Shown here in pieces: positions 8,708-37,729 of a stretch of DNA of 64,000 bases; positions within the stretch are counted from its first letter, which is position 1, and the number at the start of each line of letters is the position of its first letter. The notes beneath the pieces are model-generated. The model was not told the DNA's origin, did not search any database, and worked only from the letters and a program-made list of their open reading frames with translations. Made by a program: the position numbers and the translations under genes. The stretch is from Candidatus Scalindua rubra (GTDB taxonomy: Bacteria; Planctomycetota; Brocadiia; Brocadiales; Scalinduaceae), in the NCBI GenBank assembly GCA_001723765.1, contig MAYW01000002.1:1-64000 (forward strand). The letters run 5' to 3'.

Positions 8708-11560
8708 TTAATTCGACATTCTTAATTCTTTTATCTCCCCATCTCTCCTATGATAGCCGGTCTCTTCAATTAGCTTTTCTGCCTTTTCCAAATTCTTCCT
8801 GAACTTTGTTTCCATCTCTTCTTTGGACAAACTAAATGTCTCACCATTCTCAATTATCTGATAATCTTTATTTGCCAACTGTTCACTGTCAATTGTCAAC
8901 TGGATTCTAATATTCCTGCACGCCTCCAGGTGATAATCTGTAAGATGTAATCTCATCTGCCCGTATGCTGCAATTTCCCGGGCTTCATCAAGGTCGACCC
9001 AGGATTTGAGTAAATCTTTTTGATGTCTGGAAAGGGTTGTACGGGCAAGTAATCCCCATGGCAATCGGGACTGATCTCCAGCTTTCCGCAAGCTATCAAC
9101 CGCCTGGTTTAAATAATCAGGCGCTTCAGCAAAACACCCCTCTTTTATCCCCCCTCGAGAGCCTGTCCCGGACTCGATCCGGGAGGGGGGTGTCACAGCT
9201 TGAAGCATCAAGGCTTTGCCGATTGAGAGACTATTTAATCCAAAATCTAAAAGTGGAATTGTTGTTTTTAATTTAATAGCATAATTTGCCCTCTCCAGCA
9301 CCTCCTGATATTTCCCCATAGAAAGCAGCAAATCACAGAATCGAAAACCCTGCAAAGAATAGAGCCAGGGATATTCAGGCTGGCTCTTTTTCTGCATATT
9401 CTCAGCTTCAATAAACAGTTTTTCCGCGTCTTTGTTTTTTCCTGCCTGGTGTAAAGCATCTGCATGCGTAGTACGACTGCCCATTTCCCAGAAACCATCC
9501 CCGCTGCGATCGGCAAAGGTTACACTCTGCGCCCCATATTTTTGTGCAGATGCTACGTCACCAAGCGTGAGATACAGTTCGCTGATTGTACTAGCCCCAC
9601 TTGAAGCATTTTCCCAATCTTTAAGCTGAATTACATTTTCAATTGCGGCTTTCATTGGCTGAGCAGCTTCGGAAAGCCTTCCCACTGCACGGAGAGCAAA
9701 TCCTGCCCAGCTTAGAACTACAGCTTTTCTGTGATCCGTCAACTTAGTAGCAGGTTTGTCCCACAATCTTTCAAAAAAATTTGATAAACAGGAAAGGTCT
9801 GCTCCAAATGCTCCTAATTTATGTACAGTAAATGCTTCATTACCTCGTGCAATTCTTTTCCAATAAACGTCATATTCTGCCTCATTATATTCACCCGCAA
9901 GACATCCATGCATAACTGCCGCAAACAGCGGTTCCATTTCTTCAAGCGTGTCTGGTAATTCCTTTTCAGGCAGGTTTTTATAATATTCATACAATCTGGT
10001 ATGGGCATCTTTCCAGGCAGCGGGGTTCCCTTTTTCCAGTTTGTCGCCAAAGTGTTCGCGGATTAAGGGGTGGCAGTCGAGGGTGTCGGGATTGTGTTCG
10101 CTCTCTTTAAAAAGGAGTTTATGTTTCCTGAGATTTTCTAATGTTGATAACCAACCGCTGCCGCTCGTATCCGTAATTTTATCAGATAAACCAGCAACAG
10201 GATTATCACGAATGATTGCATTTACAGCGTCAATAGGAACCGGGCGGTCAAAAAGCCCCAGTATTGAAAGAAGCTGGTATTCAGCAGATGCGCTGCCAAA
10301 GTGGTTTGCAAACGCTTCAATTATGCGGCGGGCGTGCTTTCCCTGCTCGTCAGGAATTTTTAAATTGGGGATGCTTTTTGCTTTTTCCAGCGGGTGGTTT
10401 TTAAAAATACGAAGATATTCTGCCAGCAAATTAATGGCTAAAGCATGGTTGCCAAATTGTTGTACAATACGTTCCAGCTCTTTTTCAGAACCGAAAATTC
10501 GTCGCGTCTCTAATAATTTCCTGCCGGCCTCATCAGAAATATGTTCAAGATTCTCCTGCTTTGTCGTTTTTGTGTAGCGGTCAAGTTCCGGCACATGTTC
10601 ACGGGTTGTTATTAAACAGAGCCCTTTATTATTTTTTGCCAGCTCTGTGACGAGTGTTGCCAGGGCAGGATCCTTTATTTTTCCTTTTTCAACTTTTTCA
10701 GCAGCTTGCAAAGGCTCCAGCCCATCGAGTATCAGCAGGGTTTTGTGAATATTAATGAGCTTAGCCAACCGTTTCCCTTTATCCCACGGCGACCCCTGCA
10801 CAGGCTCTGCATCTCCGAACCATTCCAGAGCATTATTGATAAACATATCAGCAGAAATCACTTGTTCTTTTGTTCCCTGGGAATAAAATGACCAGGCATA
10901 TACTTTTTCCGCGCCGCGGTAATTATCCCAGCGCATTTTTTCCACCCATTTATTGACGAGTGTGGATTTTCCCACACCTCCGTACGCTACAAAACTGACA
11001 ATATTGGTGGCGCCGGATTCCCATGCTTCATTGAGAAGAGTTAGTTCTTTCTGCCTGCCAAAGAGTTCAAATCCTGTTTGCGGGAGTCTTTTTATGTCGA
11101 TATAGTGGTCTTCCAGAGGGGGATAAGTTTTCTTTTCAGGTTCAGTTTGCTCATAATCTTTTTTTATTTGTTTGATCACTCTTTCAAGTTGTGTGTCCCA
11201 TTCAGCTTTATCTGTGAAGTCGGCATAGGTAAAAATTCCGAGTCGTTTGGGCGGAGTACATTTATGAAGCATGATTGGAAATATTCGTTTTTTTAATCCT
11301 GCCGGATCGTCAGTTTGAAGCATGAGACCTTCAAAATTCGCAAATTCGCTATTCACCCAATCTGGCGTGAAGACCAGAACTGTTTTCGTACATTGTTCAA
11401 CAGCTTGCTCCATATTGATTAATGAAGCGGTGCCAATCTCAAAATCCCGATAATCAATATGGCAAGGAATCCCATTCTTTTCGAGATTAGTGAGCAGATA
11501 ATCTTTTACCCACTTTTCGTCTTTATGGCTGTAGCTGATAAATACTGAAGGATTAGTCAT
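8708..11560 (-). CDS. TIR-STAND NTPase with TPR-like C-terminus (candidate antiphage protein)
   Basis: 950 residues. Residues 1-145 form a TIR-type domain: SVFISYSHKDEKWVKDYL at the start and, around 68-80, WVNSEFANFEGLM, whose Glu77 is the likely NAD-hydrolysing residue. Residues 165-420 are a STAND/NB-ARC ATPase with Walker A GGVGKST ending at residue 200, Walker B LLILDGLEP near 275-283 and LITTRE near 316-321. The remainder is helical and TPR-like (for example LSEAAQPMKAAIENV). In this architecture a C-terminal sensor recognises a trigger, the STAND module oligomerises, and the TIR effector destroys NAD. It is followed by TA relics and preceded by an attC-like site and a second STAND protein, which supports a defence island. 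A hairpin insertion lies inside the coding region at 9149-9190. Confidence 0.85.
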   Translation of the reverse strand: MTNPSVFISYSHKDEKWVKDYLLTNLEKNGIPCHIDYRDFEIGTASLINMEQAVEQCTKTVLVFTPDWVNSEFANFEGLMLQTDDPAGLKKRIFPIMLHKCTPPKRLGIFTYADFTDKAEWDTQLERVIKQIKKDYEQTEPEKKTYPPLEDHYIDIKRLPQTGFELFGRQKELTLLNEAWESGATNIVSFVAYGGVGKSTLVNKWVEKMRWDNYRGAEKVYAWSFYSQGTKEQVISADMFINNALEWFGDAEPVQGSPWDKGKRLAKLINIHKTLLILDGLEPLQAAEKVEKGKIKDPALATLVTELAKNNKGLCLITTREHVPELDRYTKTTKQENLEHISDEAGRKLLETRRIFGSEKELERIVQQFGNHALAINLLAEYLRIFKNHPLEKAKSIPNLKIPDEQGKHARRIIEAFANHFGSASAEYQLLSILGLFDRPVPIDAVNAIIRDNPVAGLSDKITDTSGSGWLSTLENLRKHKLLFKESEHNPDTLDCHPLIREHFGDKLEKGNPAAWKDAHTRLYEYYKNLPEKELPDTLEEMEPLFAAVMHGCLAGEYNEAEYDVYWKRIARGNEAFTVHKLGAFGADLSCLSNFFERLWDKPATKLTDHRKAVVLSWAGFALRAVGRLSEAAQPMKAAIENVIQLKDWENASSGASTISELYLTLGDVASAQKYGAQSVTFADRSGDGFWEMGSRTTHADALHQAGKNKDAEKLFIEAENMQKKSQPEYPWLYSLQGFRFCDLLLSMGKYQEVLERANYAIKLKTTIPLLDFGLNSLSIGKALMLQAVTPPSRIESGTGSRGGIKEGCFAEAPDYLNQAVDSLRKAGDQSRLPWGLLARTTLSRHQKDLLKSWVDLDEAREIAAYGQMRLHLTDYHLEACRNIRIQLTIDSEQLANKDYQIIENGETFSLSKEEMETKFRKNLEKAEKLIEETGYHRRDGEIKELRMSN
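9149..9190. repeat. Palindromic element inserted in frame inside the TIR-STAND gene
   Basis: The outer arms CCCCCCTC (9149-9156) and GAGGGGGG (9183-9190) are complementary, as are the inner arms TCCCGGA (9166-9172) and TCCGGGA (9178-9184). It encodes a low-complexity Pro/Ser/Arg/Gly-rich insert in the TPR-like region without breaking the frame. Its G+C-rich sequence stands out from the AT-rich gene. Confidence 0.6.
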
Positions 11561-11727: not shown

Positions 11728-13491
11728 TTACCATGCCTCTGTAAAGTCTCTTTTTTTCTCATCCTGTATTTGCTGGCGTAAACTTTGTACTCTTTTCTCT
11801 AGCAATTGCCTATGCTTCAGAAACTTTACCGAATCACATATAGATATAAGTTGTTCATAAAAATATATCCTTTCTTGAAGAAGTGGAACTTGGCTACCAG
11901 ACCAGCTCCAACTAGTAGGTTCAAATGGAAGCTTTTCAAAATCATCAAAATTTTGGTTTGCCTCCAGAAACACTTGATAGAATTTGATCCTGCGGTCACG
12001 CTTAAACTCGGCAATAACGTAAAATAATAAATGCATATACTCTTTATTAGTGGATTTACCTCTAACTTCTTCACATAAAAAGCCATCTTGTCTGTCTAAT
12101 ATTTTTTCATCAGTTTGAGGGTTTACGTTTTTGTTAAAAAACAATTCATAATATCCGAAGCAGTGACCTTTCTGTTCATGCTTGAAAACTATTTCTGAGA
12201 TATTACTCATAACACTCATATAGTCATCACGCTGCCATATAAACGAATAGTCACGGCCATCATCATGCTTACTTAGATAACTTTTCCCTGAGAACTTATC
12301 CTCTAGGTATCTATTAATAAAGTTTGAATCATTATCCAGCAGTTTAGAAAACATACTACCATCATAATCAGCGTAATGATCTATCTTATCTACTGTTATA
12401 AAGGCGTCTTCAAGTAGTATTGAATTGGATGAAAATAATGATAATAGCTGTTTGTTTATTTCCGTGTGCTTATTAAAAATCAGAGATAGCGTATGTGCAA
12501 CAAGTGGTTCAGAAATTGTTCTATTGACAATAATTTGAGTTATTCTGACAATAAAGCCATTTTCAATGGATTCATACTTTAGAAGAAAATCTAGGTCATT
12601 GATAAAGTATTCGTATGCTGATGTGGCATATAACTCTGCTAGAGCCTCGAAATGTTCTGATTTAATATCTTCTTTTTGAAGATGTTGATAATAACTAAAG
12701 AGCCATCTATTTTTCGACGGATAATCGGCCATCGATATAACCTCAAATGCGGTTACTGCTCCACACGATGCAATAAGATTAGAAACTAGTATCCATGGAT
12801 TAAGTCTTAGAATGTCACCTTTATGTAAGTAATGTTTAATAACTTCACCATATAGACTTGAGTTTCGTTCGACGAGCTCTTCAAGTATATAACTAACCCC
12901 TTGTTCTATTTGCCATTTAGAGTGGTCGCTAAGAGTTTGGAGAATATCGAAAAGTTCTTGAAACATCTTATCGTAGTCATCTCTCGAATATGATTTGGTA
13001 AATCCTCTTATTTTCTTCTTTTTATATTCTCGATACTCATCATGACTCAACTTTAATTCTATTCTGTCGAATTTATTAGTAAGAAGATCGTAGAGTTCAT
13101 AGCTAGTGGATTGAAATAATGTTTTTAAATCTTCTTCAAATGGAATTTTAAGACGCCTTAATAGCTTTAGATATTCTTGGACAATAATGCAATGATAGAG
13201 GTTAGTTGGGGCAAGATCGTCCTTAAAAAAGGCTAATACTAACTTTGCGTCCTGTTCAATAATACTGTTAGCAGAAATATTCAATCCAGACTGTGAGTGA
13301 GTCAATAGTAAGTTAAGAATATATTGTTGCAGATTTTTATTTTCATAAAGACTAAACAAATAAGTTAAAATCAATTTTCTGAGATTACGTAGCTCACTTG
13401 ATTCAACCAGGTCAAATTTTGTGAAGGTTATTGTATGACCTCTTCCTGACTTGGCGCGAGAAAAATGGGTATGAAGATAATTTTCTGCCAA
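11728..13491 (-). CDS. C-terminal helical sensor half of an Avs-like STAND protein (split gene)
   Basis: 587 residues, mainly alpha-helical, with no catalytic motif of its own. The apparent start MAENYLHTHFS is not a natural beginning. Read upstream in the same frame, the DNA gives EYFSRVFIALAENYLHTHFS running directly into the tail of the 13517-15484 gene, separated from it only by a T7 run at 13521-13527. Removing one base there fuses the two into one protein of about 1250 residues. Large STAND antiphage proteins end in a long helical repeat region that senses a phage component, and this segment fits that position. On its own it would be a hypothetical protein. Confidence 0.7.
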   Translation of the reverse strand: MAENYLHTHFSRAKSGRGHTITFTKFDLVESSELRNLRKLILTYLFSLYENKNLQQYILNLLLTHSQSGLNISANSIIEQDAKLVLAFFKDDLAPTNLYHCIIVQEYLKLLRRLKIPFEEDLKTLFQSTSYELYDLLTNKFDRIELKLSHDEYREYKKKKIRGFTKSYSRDDYDKMFQELFDILQTLSDHSKWQIEQGVSYILEELVERNSSLYGEVIKHYLHKGDILRLNPWILVSNLIASCGAVTAFEVISMADYPSKNRWLFSYYQHLQKEDIKSEHFEALAELYATSAYEYFINDLDFLLKYESIENGFIVRITQIIVNRTISEPLVAHTLSLIFNKHTEINKQLLSLFSSNSILLEDAFITVDKIDHYADYDGSMFSKLLDNDSNFINRYLEDKFSGKSYLSKHDDGRDYSFIWQRDDYMSVMSNISEIVFKHEQKGHCFGYYELFFNKNVNPQTDEKILDRQDGFLCEEVRGKSTNKEYMHLLFYVIAEFKRDRRIKFYQVFLEANQNFDDFEKLPFEPTSWSWSGSQVPLLQERIYFYEQLISICDSVKFLKHRQLLEKRVQSLRQQIQDEKKRDFTEAW

Positions 13492-13516
13492 TGCAATAAA
13501 TACTCTAGAAAAATAT

Positions 13517-15484
13517 TCACTTTTTTTCAGAATTGCAGTATTCTATTGTTTTCTCAGCAACAGCATATTGCACATCGTAACCAAAGCAATAAGAGTCTGG
13601 TTGAAATCCATATCTATCTACGAAGTAGTGTAAAATTTTAGATGTGTCTTGTGGTTGCTTCTCGACATATTGCAAGAACACATCTAAAGACATTTTAGTT
13701 TCATCTATTCCTAGAAACCTAAACAATGAAAGAGTCGAAAGAAATTCTGGCAAAGTAGAACTAGAGTCTGCTTCAAATTTAATTTCATCAGTATTTATTT
13801 CCTGGCTTTTAAGACTTTTGATTTTATCCTGAATAAAGATTAGTGTCTCAGTTGGCTTCAAAAACCAAAATACATCAATTAATTGAAGAAAAGTATTTAT
13901 ATCCTTTGCTTGGGTGTGATCCCATACTTTGTCAACTGATGACTGCATGGTTTTCTTAGTTTCATCAAAATTAAAGGCGTTCAGTATTGGGCTGATAGCA
14001 TCCACAAGGCGTTGTTTAAATTGTGGGAATAAATCATTTATGAGGATAGAGAAGTCGAGGATCTTTTCTTTAATAAACACCAAATAGAAAAGATAGGTAG
14101 CAAGAACTTGGTCTGATGTTTTAACGACCTCATTTTCGAACATATCTAAAACTTCCATGTCATGGAGTGTTTTAGCTGCCTCCCAGAAATCTTCTGCAGA
14201 CATACTAAATATTCCCTCAATATCTGACATTAAGTTATTATTTGTTCGATCTACACTTCTAAAAAATGCTACAATTCCAGCAACCTTTAGAATATTTTCA
14301 TCCTTCAAGGCATCAAGGTCAGATTTTATTGATGAATAATATGTATCATATAATTCTGAGACATCTCTTATACTTTCAAGCGTATTACTTTCTTTGGCAA
14401 CTTTCGCTGCCATTATCGCTACACGCGGGTTTCCTTGGGCAATATCTATTATTCTATCTAAATATAGATGATTATTTATTTCAAATTCGTCTTGAACGAG
14501 CTTCTTGATTTCACTATCAGTGAATGGACTTAAACTTATCTCTGCGCCTGCTTCAAAAGGTTTACAGGTATCTCTAATCTTATCTAGCGCGTAATCCCTT
14601 ACAGTTACAATAATTTTGAAATTCTGGTCACTACGCTTTGTTTGCAATAGCTGTATAATATATTGAAAACCACTAATGCGATTTGCATCATCGACAAAAA
14701 TTAGATAATTGCCAGAATCAGAAAAATATGACCTAACATCTTCAAATAGATCAATTCCCTGATTGAAAATACAATATGCTTTGTATGACGTATTATTTTT
14801 TATGAAATGTTGGTAGCATTCAATAGCAATCCTGGATTTGCCCACTCCAGCTTGCCCCGAAACAATAACTATGCTGTTACATTCTATAGATGCAAGTAAG
14901 TTATTCTTTTCTTCTTCTCGAAAATGGAAGGCTGTTTTTAGCGTTGTTGTTAACTTGTTCTTTTCATACAGAGAGATAAATTTATTGAGTGGTACAATTT
15001 GCCCTGTGTCTACTTCAATACCAAGGTAATCTTTTGCAATGCTAGGATATTTTTCTAAGATATCATAAGAAACCGCTCCAATCCCATATAGATTAAGGTT
15101 TACGCCTGTTGCTTCACATTTCTCTCGTAATTGATCTATATTTTTTACTGATAATTCAGACGTATAACACAATACAATTTCTTTTATTTTTGCAACTGAT
15201 ATACCCGTTTTACTTTCATCAAGGCATTTGTCTATATCATCACAAAATTTGCTAAATACTTGATTTGCTGAAATTGTTGTATATTCCGCAAATATATACT
15301 TGCCATTTGGTGTTGGAATTAAGGTATCTGGGGTTCCTTTTCTTACTTTATTGCTTCCAGCAACGGAGCCAATAGGATTAATTTGTTGATAACCTTTTCT
15401 CAGTAGATAAGAGTCTGCCAGCTTTTGAAATGCACCTCCATCTAATTCCGAGATGGCTGTTTGAATTTGATTTATCTTTGCCAT
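13517..15484 (-). CDS. PD-(D/E)XK nuclease + nSTAND-type NTPase (N-terminal half of an Avs-like protein)
   Basis: 655 residues. Residues 10-150 resemble a restriction-type nuclease: AFQKLADSYLLRKGY, then TPD (Asp53) and IFAEYTT (Glu67), a PD...ExT variant of PD-(D/E)XK in which Thr replaces the usual Lys. The STAND ATPase follows, with Walker A GQAGVGKS at 210-217, Walker B LIFVDDANR at 261-269 and TVRD near 294-297. The nuclease-STAND-helical order is that of Avs-like defence proteins, in which target binding activates DNA cutting. The frame ends in a homopolymer (13521-13527) just where the helical domain should continue, and the next gene supplies it. Nuclease activity is uncertain because of the Lys-to-Thr change. 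Confidence 0.8.
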   Translation of the reverse strand: MAKINQIQTAISELDGGAFQKLADSYLLRKGYQQINPIGSVAGSNKVRKGTPDTLIPTPNGKYIFAEYTTISANQVFSKFCDDIDKCLDESKTGISVAKIKEIVLCYTSELSVKNIDQLREKCEATGVNLNLYGIGAVSYDILEKYPSIAKDYLGIEVDTGQIVPLNKFISLYEKNKLTTTLKTAFHFREEEKNNLLASIECNSIVIVSGQAGVGKSRIAIECYQHFIKNNTSYKAYCIFNQGIDLFEDVRSYFSDSGNYLIFVDDANRISGFQYIIQLLQTKRSDQNFKIIVTVRDYALDKIRDTCKPFEAGAEISLSPFTDSEIKKLVQDEFEINNHLYLDRIIDIAQGNPRVAIMAAKVAKESNTLESIRDVSELYDTYYSSIKSDLDALKDENILKVAGIVAFFRSVDRTNNNLMSDIEGIFSMSAEDFWEAAKTLHDMEVLDMFENEVVKTSDQVLATYLFYLVFIKEKILDFSILINDLFPQFKQRLVDAISPILNAFNFDETKKTMQSSVDKVWDHTQAKDINTFLQLIDVFWFLKPTETLIFIQDKIKSLKSQEINTDEIKFEADSSSTLPEFLSTLSLFRFLGIDETKMSLDVFLQYVEKQPQDTSKILHYFVDRYGFQPDSYCFGYDVQYAVAEKTIEYCNSEKK

Positions 15485-15561
15485 TACTCCCCTAATGTTT
15501 TCTCAGATGCTTTTCGAGCGTAAAACTATTAATATAAAATGTTATGTTTATTGTGACTTTT

Positions 15562-15680
15562 TGATACTTCGACGGCGCTCAAACCCCGCCTTTTCAAGGC
15601 GGGGATAAAAAAAGCGCCGCTCAGTATCAACCCTGAGCAAACCCCGTCCTTGAGGTCGGGGAAAGTCGAAGGTTGATATT
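15562..15680. repeat. Composite hairpin repeat
   Basis: The outer sequence starts TTGATACTTCGAC and ends GTCGAAGGTTGATATTC; its arms pair as CTTCGAC/GTCGAAG. Inside it is CAGTATCAACCCTGAGC plus two similar hairpins, ACCCCGCC...GGCGGGG (near 15583-15604) and ACCCCGTCC...GGTCGGGG (near 15640-15661). The first hairpin is bracketed by GGCGCT and AGCGCC. It looks like a dispersed repeat into which two related G+C-rich hairpins have been placed. No T-run follows the hairpins on either strand, so a terminator role is unlikely. Confidence 0.5.
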
Positions 15681-15878
15681 CAACATCTTAGATTAATAAA
15701 GTATTTAAATCAATGAAATTAGATGTAATTAACTAGGTAGGATATGGACGCCTGCTTGACCGTTTATAGTTCCGAGGCAAGCGTCCACGTCCACCTTGGT
15801 GGGATGTCTCGGCTATTTCTGGTTATTTTCGTGTTAAATGCTTATGGCCTTTAGCACAGCACGAGTTACTTAAATTCT

Positions 15879-15993
15879 AGATTCCCTGTCTGCTTACCAG
15901 GTAAGTCGTTTCCTCGGGAATGACAAGAAGAATAATAAATGTCATTTCCGACTTGCCCTGTACCATTACGGTTTAGGGCTTGATCGGAAATCT
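15879..15993. repeat. Dispersed GATTCCC / GGGAATGACA repeat, second copy
   Basis: Begins CTAGATTCCCTGTCTGC and contains CGGGAATGACAAG and TGTCATTTCCGAC, ending GATCGGAAATCTTTTTT. It shares its ends with the 30957-31053 copy. It lies in the 540-base gap between the STAND gene and the VWA gene. That gap otherwise holds the composite hairpin and an inverted repeat around 15749-15786 (GGACGC...GCGTCC). Confidence 0.55.
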
Positions 15994-16028
15994 TTTTTCG
16001 TGCAAAAAATGTTAATGGTTTATGTAGC

Positions 16029-17192
16029 CTACCACAGCATCTTGCGTCTTGAGGCTACGAAGTCATCGAGGACGTATCTGCCCAGTTCTTCAGACCTTGG
16101 ATAAAATGCCCTGCCTCTGTTTACGTTTGTAAGCCTGCCTACAAAATTGGCAAGATCAAAGTAGTAATAATCATCAATCAAGGCAAATGTATTTATTACA
16201 ATCCCCTCGTTTTTACATTTTCTGGCCTCGCGGAGGGTTTCTTTCGTAGTTCTATCATTTGGCGGGTAAATGAGACATAGCGTGTCTCCTTCGTAATGTG
16301 CGGTTGGTTCACCATCGGTTATCAACATTACCTGTTTGTTGTGACATGTTTCTTTTGAAAGAATCTTTCTTGATAGTCTTAGCCCTGCATGAATATTTGT
16401 AAAATGTTCGGGAATACGCCCTTTGTATTCTTTCATATCCTCTTTTTTAACCTCTAAATAGATGCATGAATCAAAGAGCCTTATGGGTCTTGGCATGATA
16501 TATGGTAAATCTTTAATCTTTAACTCTCTTGCAAATGAGTAAAATCCTATAAAATATAGTCTATCGTTAGGGAATTGTGTCTGGACTAAACCCTGAAGTG
16601 CAAGTGCGACTTTTTTAGCCTTGTAAAATTTGCCGTACCTCATCATAGACCCACTCATATCAAGTAACAAAATAGTTGCGCAACTTGGCTGTGCTTCTGA
16701 TTCATAAACCATAAAATCTTCCCTGTTCATCTCGATTGGTATGGACAGCCCTGTACGTCTTAACGAATTTTTCAATGTTGAGTTCAAATCAAGATTTGAT
16801 AACGGGTCGCCAAATTCGTAATTTTTAGATTCTTCCTGGATTATTGTACTATGGCCTTTAAAATTTGATTCGTGATTACCATAGTTGTCTTTCTTCATTG
16901 AAGTAAAGATTTCCAGTAATGCCTTGCGTTCCATTCTTTTTAAACCTTTTGGTGATAGTACAAATTTTCCCTTGACCTTTTTTATATAACCCTCTTCCTC
17001 GAGGCTTGAGGCATCAAGGTCTGTTTGCTGAAGGATCGTATCTAAATCAACCCCATGCTTGAGTATAAAATCCGAAAGTTGATCCATCAAATGCTTTGGA
17101 TTTATAAAATCAGCTTCCTGTGAACCATCCCACTTTGAGTACCTGAACATTTGCATTATATTTCTCTTTTTTGACAAATATTTCCATCTCAT
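16029..17192 (-). CDS. VWA-domain protein partnered with MoxR-type ATPase
   Basis: 387 residues. The VWA domain runs from about residue 165 to 375 with an intact metal-ion-dependent adhesion site: DMSGS at 178-182, a downstream Thr (HFTNIHAG) and LITDGEP. The N-terminal 150 residues are helical with no recognised family. VWA proteins of this type work with MoxR/ChlI-like AAA+ ATPases, as in Mg-chelatase D/I pairs, to remodel or insert metal into a target protein. The ATPase gene lies 9 bases upstream in the same direction, so the two are almost certainly one operon. The target is unknown, and no chelatase catalytic subunit is nearby. Confidence 0.85.
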   Translation of the reverse strand: MRWKYLSKKRNIMQMFRYSKWDGSQEADFINPKHLMDQLSDFILKHGVDLDTILQQTDLDASSLEEEGYIKKVKGKFVLSPKGLKRMERKALLEIFTSMKKDNYGNHESNFKGHSTIIQEESKNYEFGDPLSNLDLNSTLKNSLRRTGLSIPIEMNREDFMVYESEAQPSCATILLLDMSGSMMRYGKFYKAKKVALALQGLVQTQFPNDRLYFIGFYSFARELKIKDLPYIMPRPIRLFDSCIYLEVKKEDMKEYKGRIPEHFTNIHAGLRLSRKILSKETCHNKQVMLITDGEPTAHYEGDTLCLIYPPNDRTTKETLREARKCKNEGIVINTFALIDDYYYFDLANFVGRLTNVNRGRAFYPRSEELGRYVLDDFVASRRKMLW

Positions 17193-17201
17193 GAATGTTT
17201 A

Positions 17202-18638
17202 CTATATTTCTATTTTCCTTCTTTTATAGGTGGCTTTTCCTCCCAGTTCATCTTTATTCAGTTTCTTGTTTGCATGTAAACCATCGAGTAAGAATTCTAC
17301 TAAAGATGCAGCCATTGGAGGAGTAATTTCTCGATCCATAATCACATCTTCCATTTTGTTGTGTAAGCCCTGTACCATTTTCTTGATTTCTTTATTACTT
17401 TCCAAAAGTTTAACGTACTCCTCTGAAGGCATTTCGTCGGAGACGTAAATATTTTTATCGTTAAGCAATCTTATTTCTTCCTGATGTGCTTCAATCTTGA
17501 AGTATTGATTAAAGACGTTTTTGATGGCTTCTCTTGTGATCTTTCGAAGAATTTCATCTTCTTGTTCATCATCCATGGTTGAGTCAAGTTCAACTTTACC
17601 CCTTGCAGAAGCGAATATGTGCCTTAAATCACTTATTCTTGGTACCGTATCTTTTTCGCTTGTCTTGATAGCACGGCGCTCAGCATTACTTGTTAGTGTT
17701 TCATAGTTGCAAATTGACATCCTTGCACTTACACCTGATGACTGATTTATTTCTTGACTGGACCTTGCTATATGGGAAATCTCTTCTATTATTTCTTTCA
17801 TAAATTTTGGTATTGCAACTTTAATGCCACAATTTCTGTCAATCCATGCATTTTGTTCTATAATTCTTATGCCATCATCTCTGGTTAATGGATAATGAGT
17901 TGTTACTACGGAACCAATTCTGTCTTTGAGGGGGGTAACTATTCTTCCTCTATTAGTATAGTCTTCGGGATTAGCAGAAAAGACAAGTATTACGTCAAGA
18001 GGCAGTCTAATTGGGTATCCTCTTATTTGTATATCTCTTTCTTGTAATACATTAAAAAGACTTACCTGTATTTTTGGAGAGAGATCTGGTAATTCATTAA
18101 TTGCAAAAATACCCCTGTTAGTTCTTGGAATGAGACCGAAATGTATTGTTAATTCGCTTGAAAGATATTTGCCTTCTGCAACTTTTACTAGATCTATATC
18201 TCCAATTAAATCAGCTACAGTTACATCAGGAGTGGCAAGTTTTTCTCTATATCTATATTCTCGAGAGAGCCAGGTTATTTCGGTATATTCACCATGCTCA
18301 TTAACTTTATCTGTACATGCTTTGCAAACGGGATGAAAAGGATTGTCATTTATTTCGCAACCCTTGATAATTGGGATTTCCTCATCTAATAGATTTATCA
18401 GATTTCTTAGAATTCTTGTTTTTGCCTGTCCACGAAGACCGAGAAGCAGGGTATCATGTTTGGAAAGAATTGCATTTTCGATCTGTGGTATAACGGTATC
18501 ATCATATCCAATAATACCCGGAAATAATTCCTCACTTTCTTTTAGCCTGGTGATGAGATTTTTTCTCATTTCATCTTTGATAGATAATACTTCATATTTA
18601 GAGTCTTTTAATTCTCTGATTGTCTTTGGTTTTTGCAT
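17202..18638 (-). CDS. MoxR/ChlI-like AAA+ ATPase
   Basis: 478 residues. The AAA+ core spans about residues 35-330 with Walker A GLRGQAKT at 67-74, an insert with Cys105-x2-Cys108 (FHPVCKACTDK), Walker B-like GIFAINELPDL and sensor 1 FSANPEDYTNRG. This is the Mg-chelatase-I/MoxR clade, which forms hexameric rings and acts with VWA partners. The stop lies 9 bases from the VWA start and the gene starts 8 bases after the gyrA stop, so gyrA, ATPase and VWA are probably cotranscribed. That would couple an unknown chaperone or chelatase-like function to gyrase expression. Confidence 0.85.
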   Translation of the reverse strand: MQKPKTIRELKDSKYEVLSIKDEMRKNLITRLKESEELFPGIIGYDDTVIPQIENAILSKHDTLLLGLRGQAKTRILRNLINLLDEEIPIIKGCEINDNPFHPVCKACTDKVNEHGEYTEITWLSREYRYREKLATPDVTVADLIGDIDLVKVAEGKYLSSELTIHFGLIPRTNRGIFAINELPDLSPKIQVSLFNVLQERDIQIRGYPIRLPLDVILVFSANPEDYTNRGRIVTPLKDRIGSVVTTHYPLTRDDGIRIIEQNAWIDRNCGIKVAIPKFMKEIIEEISHIARSSQEINQSSGVSARMSICNYETLTSNAERRAIKTSEKDTVPRISDLRHIFASARGKVELDSTMDDEQEDEILRKITREAIKNVFNQYFKIEAHQEEIRLLNDKNIYVSDEMPSEEYVKLLESNKEIKKMVQGLHNKMEDVIMDREITPPMAASLVEFLLDGLHANKKLNKDELGGKATYKRRKIEI

Positions 18639-18646
18639 ATTATGTG

Positions 18647-21109
18647 TTATTCAACCTCCTCAGTTTGTTCTGATGTTTCTTCTTCTTTGACATCACTTAT
18701 AACTGGTGCAATAGATACTAATTTATCTCCTTCTTGCAAAGTAATAAGTCTTACTCCTTGAGTATTACGTCCAATAGATCTAATAGTATTTATGGCGGTG
18801 CGAATTACCATACCATTAGCAGTCATCATCATAAGTTCGTCTTCATCTCTCACATTTTTTAAACCAATGACTTTGCCATTTCTTTCTGTTGTTTTTATAT
18901 TAATAACACCTTGTCCTCCTCTTCGTTGTACATGGTATTCACTATATTCTGTCCTTTTCCCATATCCATTTTCACATACTGTTAGAAGTGTTGCATCCTT
19001 GTCAACTATAACGATGCCTCTTACATTATCATCTTCTTGTAACTCAACACCTTTTACTCCACGTGTAGCACGACCCATACATCTTACATCGTTTTCCGAA
19101 AACCTTATTGCTTTTCCTTTTTCAGTTCCAAGTACGATTTCCCGCTCCCCATGCGTTAGCTTCACTCCTATAAGTTTATCACCACTGTCAAGAAGGATAG
19201 CAATTATTCCACCTTTTTGAGGACGACCAAAGGCGCTAAGGACTGTCTTTTTTATTATTCCATTTTTAGTTGCCATAATTAACATTCTATCATCAAACCT
19301 GCGAATCGGGATCATCGATGAAATATTTTCACCCTTTTCTAAGTTTAAAAGATTAATTATTGCACGTCCTCTTGCTGTACGTCCTAATTGTGGAATATCG
19401 TATACCTTCTGCCAATATACCTTACCCATATCTGTAAAGAAAAGTATATAATCATGTGTTGAGGCGATGAAGAGGTGCTCAACAAAATCTCCTTCTTTCA
19501 TATCAGCGCCGGTAACACCTTTTCCCCCTCTATGTTGTTTCCTGTACGTGCTTAAGGGCAATCTTTTTGTATAGCCATCATGAGTAACTATAACTATTAC
19601 GTCTTCCTCGGAAATGAGGTCTTCCATCTCAAATTCGCCGATTTCACCTATAATTTCAGTGTTTCGTGGGTCCCCATATTTCTCTTTTATTTCATAAAGA
19701 TCTTCCCGGATAATGTCTAAAACAAGTTTTTCATCTGCCATGATAGCCTTATATTCTTTTATATTTTCACAGATTTTCTTATACTCTTCTTCGATCTTAT
19801 TTTGTTCAAGGTTAGTTAACCTCTGAAGTTTCATGTCAAGGATTGCATTTGCCTGTACCTCAGTTAAAGAAAATTTAGATACTAATGAGGCCCTTGCGTC
19901 TTCGACGTTTTTGGAAGATTTGATTAGCTTAATAATCTCATCAATATTTTTAAGAGCAATCCTCAAACCTTCCAGTATATGAGCCCTTTCTTCTGCACGA
20001 GCTAATAGAAAACGCGTTCTACGTTGTATCACTTCCTTTCTATGATCAATATAAGCAGTGATCAACTGTTTTAGATTCAACGTTTGAGGACGATTATTTA
20101 TTAAGGCTATCATAATTATGCTGTAAGAGTCTTGCAGTTTTGTGTGTTTATATAACAGATTAAGCACAACTTCCTCACGTTCACCTTTTTTCAAATCAAT
20201 CACAATCCGGCTTCCTTCTCTATCACTCTCATTCCGAACATCTGATATACCTTTTATCTGTTCATTTTTTACCAATTCTGCTATTCTTTCTATTATTTTG
20301 TCCCTATTAAGTTGATAAGGTATTTCGGTTATGACTATATTCTTTTTACCAGTCTTTGTCGTTTCGGTATGTGCCCTTGCACGGACGATTATAGTACCTC
20401 GACCAGTTTTGTAGCCCTCATTTATACCTTTTGTACCACATATTAATGCACCCGTTGGAAAATCAGGACCTTTTATAATCTCTATAAGTTCATCTATAGT
20501 GACATCTGGATTATCAATAACTCTTATTATGCCATCACATACCTCATTTACATTATGTGGAGGTATGCTTGTCGCCATACCTACGGCAATACCTGAGCTA
20601 CCGTTACATAAGATATTTGGAAATTTTGAAGGAAGTACAACAGGTTCCATACGGGTTTCATCATAATTTGGAACGAAATTGACTGTGTTTTGTTTAAGGT
20701 CTGCCATCATTTCCATAGATGCGTTGGTCATCCTTGCTTCTGTGTATCTCATTGCAGCAGGTGGATCTCCGTCAATTGATCCAAAATTACCTTGACCGTT
20801 TATGAGGGTATATCTGCAACTGAAATCTTGAGCTAAGCGAACAAGTGTGGGATATACTACCTGTTCACCATGTGGGTGATAATTTCCTGTTGTATCTCCA
20901 CAAATTTTAGCACACTTTCTAAATTTGGAAGCCGGACCAAGGCCTAGATCATTCATCGCAACAAGTATTCTCCTTTGAGATGGTTTCAAACCATCTCTCA
21001 CATCAGGTAATGCCCTACTCATTATTACGCTCATTGCAAACGTTAAATACGAGTCTTTCATTTCCTCTTCAATGATGACGTCTTTTATATTTCCCTTTTC
21101 TTCTATCAT
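18647..21109 (-). CDS. gyrA: DNA gyrase subunit A
   Basis: 820 residues. The breakage-reunion domain carries the catalytic Tyr122 in AAMRYTEAR, with the same numbering as E. coli GyrA. The C-terminal beta-pinwheel contains gyrase-box-like motifs QHRGGKG and QRRGGQG, favouring gyrase over topoisomerase IV. Together with GyrB it introduces negative supercoils. In the quinolone region the sequence is HPHGEQVVYP, giving Gln83 and Pro87 where E. coli has Ser83 and Asp87. The last ten or so residues are acidic. It is somewhat shorter than E. coli GyrA (875) but typical of many phyla. It lies upstream of the MoxR/VWA pair in the same direction. Confidence 0.97.
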   Translation of the reverse strand: MIEEKGNIKDVIIEEEMKDSYLTFAMSVIMSRALPDVRDGLKPSQRRILVAMNDLGLGPASKFRKCAKICGDTTGNYHPHGEQVVYPTLVRLAQDFSCRYTLINGQGNFGSIDGDPPAAMRYTEARMTNASMEMMADLKQNTVNFVPNYDETRMEPVVLPSKFPNILCNGSSGIAVGMATSIPPHNVNEVCDGIIRVIDNPDVTIDELIEIIKGPDFPTGALICGTKGINEGYKTGRGTIIVRARAHTETTKTGKKNIVITEIPYQLNRDKIIERIAELVKNEQIKGISDVRNESDREGSRIVIDLKKGEREEVVLNLLYKHTKLQDSYSIIMIALINNRPQTLNLKQLITAYIDHRKEVIQRRTRFLLARAEERAHILEGLRIALKNIDEIIKLIKSSKNVEDARASLVSKFSLTEVQANAILDMKLQRLTNLEQNKIEEEYKKICENIKEYKAIMADEKLVLDIIREDLYEIKEKYGDPRNTEIIGEIGEFEMEDLISEEDVIVIVTHDGYTKRLPLSTYRKQHRGGKGVTGADMKEGDFVEHLFIASTHDYILFFTDMGKVYWQKVYDIPQLGRTARGRAIINLLNLEKGENISSMIPIRRFDDRMLIMATKNGIIKKTVLSAFGRPQKGGIIAILLDSGDKLIGVKLTHGEREIVLGTEKGKAIRFSENDVRCMGRATRGVKGVELQEDDNVRGIVIVDKDATLLTVCENGYGKRTEYSEYHVQRRGGQGVINIKTTERNGKVIGLKNVRDEDELMMMTANGMVIRTAINTIRSIGRNTQGVRLITLQEGDKLVSIAPVISDVKEEETSEQTEEVE

Positions 21110-35854: not shown

Positions 35855-37729
35855 CCCAACTTTCGCTATTCGTCCCTAATTTAAAAAATTTTTAAGTATG
35901 CAAAGATGTAAGTGTTTGTAAATAAAGGGTTCAATTTTTTAAAAAGTCCCAAAATACGCCAAAATCCCCTGTAGTGTAGACCTACCCCCTTTTTTTCTTA
36001 ATTCCTTTTTGCGATAATACCTCCATCATGTTTCTAAGATGCAACGAACGATTTAAAAATGGCAAGAATCATAGGTACTGGAACATAGTCGAAAACAAGC
36101 GGACAAGTGGAGGCCGTATTGTCCAACGTCAAGTCCTCTATCTTGGTGAAATAAATGATAACCAGCAAGAGGCGTGGCGTAAGACTATCGAGATATTTGA
36201 AGAAGGACATAAACAACCAAAGCAAATGCTCCTTTTCCCTGAAGATGCGTCCAGTTACAAAAGAGCACATAATGCAATACATGTAAGACTAAATGAGCTA
36301 CAAATAAAAAAGCCTCGTCAATGGGGAGCTTGCTGGTTATTTTGTGAGCTATGGAGTCTCTTAGAGCCAGATAGATTTTGGATAGACAAACTATTGCCAG
36401 GCAGAAAAGGAACACGTTGGCTAAATGTTTTTAAAACACTTACAGCCTATCGATTAATAGATCCGGGAAGCGAGTGGCGTTTACATAGATTATGGTATGA
36501 ACAAAGCGCCATGGGAGATTTATTAGGTGAAGACTATGGTTTAGTCCAAAAGGACAAATTATATCGTTGTCTTGACAAACTCCTTGAGCATAAAGAATAT
36601 CTTTTTTCATTTCTCCGAGAGAGATGGCAAAACATGTTCAATGTTAAATTTGATATTTTACTTTATGACCTAACCAGTACCTATTTTGAATGTGATCCAC
36701 CTGGTGCAGGAATACGGAAGTTTGGATACGGAAGAAACAATAAAGAAAATGAAAGGTTCTGAATATCCGATAAAATATCTCATAGGCACACCCAAAGGCA
36801 GATTGACAAAACTTGAAAAGAAGTTTTTAGATAAACCATGGGAAGAAGTTCGCGACAAAGTTAAAGTGAAGCTACTTAAGGAAGCCTGCCCAAGCCTGGT
36901 CAAGGCCAGGGATGGAGAACTTTATGTTTTGGTAGAGAGTGCAGACCGTGTAAACAAAGAGCGGTCTATGCGTAGGCACAAGTTGAAAAGACTATGGGCA
37001 CGGTTAAAACAGTTGCAGGCCCAGAGCAATACAAGAGATCAATTACTATTAAAGATTGGGGCCGCCAAAAAAGAAGCTGGTAGGGTGTACCCACTGGTAA
37101 AGATCAATTTGCCTGACGCAAAAGGAATAGTTAACAAGGAGACGTTTACCTTCAGTTTGAATAAAGATAAATTTTGCAAAGTGATGAAAAAGGAAGGAAA
37201 GTATTTGCTTCGATCGAATTTGACGGCTACAGATCCTGGATTACTCTGGAAGCAGTATATGTTATTGGGAGAAATAGAACAGGCTTTTAAAGAGATTAAA
37301 GGAGACTTATTGATACGACCTATTCATCATCAAAAAGACATAAGGATAGAGGCACATATTTTTGTCGCATTCCAGGCCTATTGTCTAAACGTTACGCTTA
37401 AACAGAGGTTAAAATTATTAGCGCCAGGACTAACACCAAGGGCTGTAATAGAAAAGTTCAAGAAGATACAAATGCTTGATGTGCATCTTCCGACAACGGA
37501 TGGAAAGCAACTCGTATTGACTCGTTATACACAACCTGAAAGGGAGCATAAGATGTTACTAAACCAGATGAAATTGAATTTGCCAAAGCAACCACCACCG
37601 AAAATCACATCTAATGGGGAGACTATCGTGAAGTAGTGAAATAGCAATTTGTAGTGTAGACTTTTAAGGTGTTTTCATTGATTTATAAGGACTTAGCTCG
37701 CCAAAACACCTCGAATAGCGAAAGTCGGG
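35855..37729 (+). mobile_element. Broken IS element, IS1634-like
   Basis: Terminal inverted repeats CCCAACTTTCGCTATTCG (35855-35872) and CGAATAGCGAAAGTCGGG (37712-37729) match at 17 of 18 positions and enclose a damaged transposase. The sequence TGTAGTGTAGAC appears near both ends (35972-35983 and 37655-37666). The outer flanks TGCCTAT and ATAGGCA are also inverted, so the true ends may be slightly further out. The element is unlikely to move by itself because the transposase is interrupted. Confidence 0.7.
36028..37636 (+). pseudogene. IS1634-family transposase, frameshifted and internally deleted
   Basis: The first frame (36028-36762) gives the DNA-binding N-terminus and the first catalytic region LLYDLTSTYFE, whose Asp belongs to the DDE triad, up to FGYGRNNKENERF. 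The second frame (36686-37636) gives MKGSEYPIKYLIGTPKGRL and onward to the C-terminal catalytic area GEIEQAFKEIKGDL. About 100 or more residues normally found between these segments, holding the second Asp region, are missing, and the frame changes at the joint near 36740. The protein would not be functional. Confidence 0.75.

Follow-up and report, generated by a model that had tools for sequence, protein, structure and literature searches.

The DNA analysed here (the window) is a stretch of 64,000 nucleotides from Candidatus Scalindua rubra, contig MAYW01000002.1. Two adjacent open reading frames (ORFs) of 655 and 587 aa lie on its minus strand, and the locus raises the question of whether they are two genes or a single gene whose reading frame has been broken, and, in the latter case, whether the break belongs to the organism or to the assembly. 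An earlier note had described them as one Avs-like protein gene split by a homopolymer indel; the coordinates that it gave for both ORFs were right (Table 1).

The presence of hydrazine synthase alpha (PF18582) in the genome identifies the host as an anammox planctomycete; the draft is 88% complete with 5.4% contamination. The GyrA encoded at 18647-21109 shares about 79-85% identity with its counterparts in same-family genomes, and the contig therefore belongs to the host genome. The MoxR-VWA genes at 16029-18638 adjoin the broken gene and follow GyrA in the relative G004. Directly downstream from the broken gene lies a probable second STAND-type immune gene, coding for a TIR-STAND-TPR protein; plasmid relatives of this protein match parts of it only. 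The upstream spacer (15485-16028) contains a terminator-like stem (15640-15617, minus strand) and G-rich repeated words, and a search of repeat families and Rfam near the gene, including this spacer, gave no match.

Table 1. Features of the broken gene and of its downstream neighbour, in window coordinates.
Feature	Position	Strand	Evidence
Broken gene: nuclease, nSTAND3 NTPase, helical C-terminal part (sensor); 1251 codons across the break	11728..15484	-	Full-length intact homologues
N-terminal fragment, 655 aa, ATG start	13517..15484	-	
C-terminal fragment, 604 codons of open frame; putative sensor, predicted almost entirely alpha-helical	11728..13542	-	
Listed ORF of 587 aa; TTG start at 13491 without support	11728-13491	-	
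A7 run (T7 on the plus strand), site of the frame break	13521..13527	-	Homologues without a run here
PD-(D/E)XK-like nuclease domain, residues 1-170	14975..15484	-	Alignment of seven sequences; predicted secondary structure
nSTAND3 NTPase core and following region, residues 181-480	14045..14944	-	PF20720, E 8.4e-8
TIR (PF13676) - NB-ARC/NACHT-like - TPR protein, 950 aa, directly downstream	8708-11560	-	

One reading frame across an A7 run

The analysis confirmed that the 655-aa and 587-aa ORFs belong to one gene, interrupted by an indel of a single base. The purine-rich sequence AGGGGAG precedes the ATG of the 655-aa ORF, which ends in ...NSEKK-TGA, and the A7 run abuts the stop codon at 13517-13519. 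When one base of the run is skipped, a frame of 3756 nt with a single terminal stop is obtained, coding for 1251 residues; this reproduces the fused length proposed in the earlier note. The downstream frame opens only shortly before the A7, where it overlaps the upstream one by no more than 26 nt, and the break must fall within this overlap.

A search of the collection with the read-through protein yielded G415, from a Methylococcales MAG (L005), in which a single ORF of 1250 aa shows 69% identity over residues 1-1249. Genome searches added two further intact homologues, one gammaproteobacterial (G660, L036; 1250 aa) and the other from a planctomycete of a different family (G127, L010; 1244 aa), as well as the gammaproteobacterial G526 (L035, 891-4637), which keeps the same frame over 1250 codons and contains two nonsense codons. 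A distant branch is found on Leptospira plasmids, where annotation gives each homologue as one protein, 1242 or 1244 aa long. In all, five intact full-length homologues crossing the join were found, and these settle the fusion of the two ORFs; the split-gene claim of the earlier note is thus borne out by the short overlap at the A7 and by single-ORF homologues.

The presence of two ORFs could also be read as a two-component system, with the helical protein encoded apart from the nuclease-NTPase, and effector and sensor are indeed split into separate genes in other defence systems. Every intact homologue is, however, a single ORF of 1242-1250 aa, and no homologue split at the junction was seen in the alignment of seven sequences. 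Moreover, the downstream frame has its first in-frame ATG at codon 176, the sole start codon near the junction being a TTG. Two real genes are therefore extremely improbable, and this arrangement was ruled out on the ground that all intact homologues are fused.

No relative of the broken gene was detected in the search of viral contigs and phage records, and a sequence search of solved structures gave none beyond P-loop-type and chance matches. A search of 58 other genomes from the same family and order did not find the gene either, except for one weak match to the NTPase region. A 1260-aa archaeal protein encoded on a Haloarcula plasmid (L008, 5440-9222) has a related NTPase and a different N-terminus, and its gene adjoins that of a VWA-domain protein. 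In L006, the intact Leptospira copy is followed by the gene of a different large protein (11881-15675; 1264 aa) with a P-loop motif.

Domain order and relation to Avs systems

The order nuclease, STAND NTPase, helical C-terminus given in the earlier note is backed by Pfam, by the predicted structure and by the intact homologues. For the nuclease domain, no Pfam family was recognised in this protein or in its homologues. In the low-confidence structural model (pLDDT about 30-80 in this region) the predicted elements follow each other as H16-29, E55-57, E63-69, H73-88, E100-107, H113-124 and E129-134, an order that fits the alpha-beta-beta-beta-alpha-beta core of PD-(D/E)XK. Residues D53 (GTPD), E67, T69-T70 (ExTT), K79 and D83 are invariant in the seven sequences. 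The threonine noted earlier at the position of the catalytic lysine (AEYTT) is present, and since all seven sequences have Thr at this canonical ExK position it is a family trait and not a local inactivation. Judging from the alignment, the invariant Lys79, located on the following helix, may replace the missing lysine.

The NTPase was recognised by PF20720 with 32.5 bits (gathering cut-off 27.2) in this protein and with 36 bits in the intact homologue, and the same family matched in four of four homologues. Walker A (GQAGVGKS, 210-217), Walker B (IFVDD, 262-266) and the GNPR motif (351-354) are all intact, and their key positions are invariant in the seven sequences.

The C-terminal part is predicted to be almost entirely alpha-helical; the models are weak, with a mean pLDDT of 56 for this part and of 47 for the N-terminal part. 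A fold search with the C-terminal part returned only generic helical-repeat proteins, with E values of 1e-3 or weaker, and no match to a recognised phage sensor was obtained. The C-terminal half is also the least conserved, with 18-21% identity between the two branches, compared with 32-38% for the nuclease, as may be expected for a putative sensor.

The description of the gene as Avs-like was upheld in part: architecture and best structural match agree with it, but the protein falls short of the curated Avs4 model. With Foldseek, the best PDB match of the low-confidence N-terminal model was Avs4 bound to phage portal (8dgf; E 1.3e-6); TM-scores were low, and this match is a lead rather than proof. 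Applied to the intact homologue G415, the curated Avs4 model of NCBIfam gave 18.6 bits where its cut-off asks for 1500, a weak match in the P-loop region. No Avs model of NCBIfam was listed at E values up to 10 for four homologues; of six members run against PADLOC, a single one was hit, by Avs2 at E 0.003.

The tripartite plan of effector, STAND and repeat sensor is present in a single chain, the effector and sensor being assigned from low-confidence models. Avs4 (AVAST type 4), which binds the phage portal, likewise combines an N-terminal nuclease, a STAND NTPase and a long helical C-terminus in one chain, but spans about 1579 positions, against 1251 residues here. Avs5 (SIR2-nSTAND3-repeat sensor) shares the PF20720 NTPase and the C-terminal helical sensor; its effector is a SIR2 NADase, whereas a nuclease is found here, and AVAST5 filaments appear only as weak matches further down the fold list of the N-terminal part. 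With Avs2, a nuclease-STAND protein that senses the large terminase subunit, the single-gene effector-STAND-sensor plan is common, although the PADLOC model touches just the one homologue. Avs5 has nSTAND3 as its NTPase, and Avs1-4 act through nuclease effectors (PMC12931631). The family is Avs-like by architecture and is not a member of the curated Avs1-5.

Origin of the frame break

The A7 run at the break could be used for recoding: were RNA polymerase or the ribosome to slip on it, some full-length protein would be made, and the site would adjust the dose of a toxic immune protein like a rheostat. The position of the run, directly against the stop codon, speaks for this, as does the sequence A AAA AAG, which is a known slippery heptamer for -1 frameshifting. 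A -1 programmed frameshift at this heptamer was nevertheless rejected: it leads to a stop after about 30 codons and leaves the halves unjoined, as these are joined by a +1/-2 shift only. Slippage at A/T runs can restore disrupted ORFs in bacteria (PMC1088944), which also counts for recoding. Against it, the slippery site is not conserved, the six homologues having no run at the junction, and programmed slippage is unlikely because the run is missing from all of them. The run is, in addition, shorter than the roughly nine nucleotides from which selection against A/T runs, and so against slippage, shows in many genomes (PMC1088944). Finally, a deletion is needed here, while single-base insertions, not deletions, dominate the transcript errors in A-runs (PMC5574713). 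Recoding is accordingly judged improbable.

An error of assembly or sequencing is the other explanation. The gene would then be an intact 1251-aa Avs-like gene, and the extra A a homopolymer miscall or a minority variant in the metagenome. The break sits in an A7 run, the genome is a draft of 443 contigs, and the rest of the gene is undamaged and under purifying selection. Compared with G415, zero further indels were found in 1250 aligned codons, except for one extra C-terminal residue, and sites that are otherwise invariant were not enriched in unusual residues. The dN/dS ratio against G415 was about 0.13 before the break and about 0.14 after it; synonymous divergence between the two is near saturation, and a recent break would leave no trace in these values.

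About 430 kb of the 5.2 Mb assembly served as a control for homopolymer splits. In these sequences 44 same-strand adjacent-frame pairs were counted, and only the pair of the broken gene has an A7/T7 run in its overlap; the A7-linked split is more than chance. Inside intact long ORFs there were 143 A/T runs of at least seven nucleotides. The sole longer run, an A10 in L032, divides a permease gene from a substrate-binding-protein gene according to Pfam, a normal gene pair. Besides the broken gene, three pairs with a run in the overlap were checked with Pfam: two consist of separate known families, and the second ORF of the third (L025) had no match. With 143 unharmed runs and no second A7/T7-linked split in these 430 kb, errors at such runs are not a general feature of the assembly, and homopolymer splitting as a general assembly fault was rejected.

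Elsewhere in the window, at 35980-37633 of the plus strand, two long frames share 89 nt, and no homopolymer is present there; they may be a normal overlapping pair or a further frame break.

The control speaks against an error at this particular run, and so do the homologues, which are broken independently by lesions that are not homopolymer errors. G526 carries one TGA and one TAG, both in-frame. Among the broken Leptospira plasmid copies (L049, L050, L051), that of Leptospira noguchii has a one-base deletion and those of two L. interrogans plasmids are interrupted by IS1501 within the nuclease domain, in one case alongside a further 23-base deletion; sister Leptospira plasmids hold intact copies. 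Independent breakage on several occasions suggests a cost to the carrier, and the gene seems to be an ordinary immune-type gene that mutation often disables.

Because the homologues are independently and recurrently broken, a real mutation is the more plausible origin of the indel, and an assembly error, although it keeps some weight, is unlikely. The evidence favours a genuine, probably recent inactivation over a sequencing error.

Proposed function and fate of the gene

We consider it probable that the locus is a single-gene, Avs-like intracellular sensor of phages in an anammox planctomycete, and that the one-base indel in the A-run has abolished or greatly lowered its activity. When intact, the protein would bind a conserved phage protein through its C-terminal helical array (about residues 480-1251), and this binding would free the nSTAND3 NTPase to bind ATP and to oligomerise. 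Oligomerisation would gather the N-terminal PD-(D/E)XK-type nuclease domains, and the gathered nucleases would degrade DNA, so that the infection is stopped or the cell killed. In the broken gene, translation would end after residue 655 and yield a nuclease-NTPase protein that lacks most of the sensor. The system in this genome is most likely off, and the lesion would be present in the living organism and recent.

A broader proposal is made tentatively: this gene, G415, G526, G660, G127 and the Leptospira genes could represent an undescribed Avs-like type, with a nuclease that has ExT and a relocated Lys79, placed on nSTAND3. Such a type might sense a phage protein of its own and be inactivated repeatedly as costly, with populations carrying on and off copies.

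These results resolve the split annotation of the locus and extend the Avs-like sensors by a nuclease-nSTAND3 family that is not yet catalogued. Its hosts include the anammox planctomycete, gammaproteobacteria (a Methylococcales MAG among them), another planctomycete and, through their plasmids, Leptospira. The natural intact homologues G415, G660 and G127 make the function of the family directly testable.
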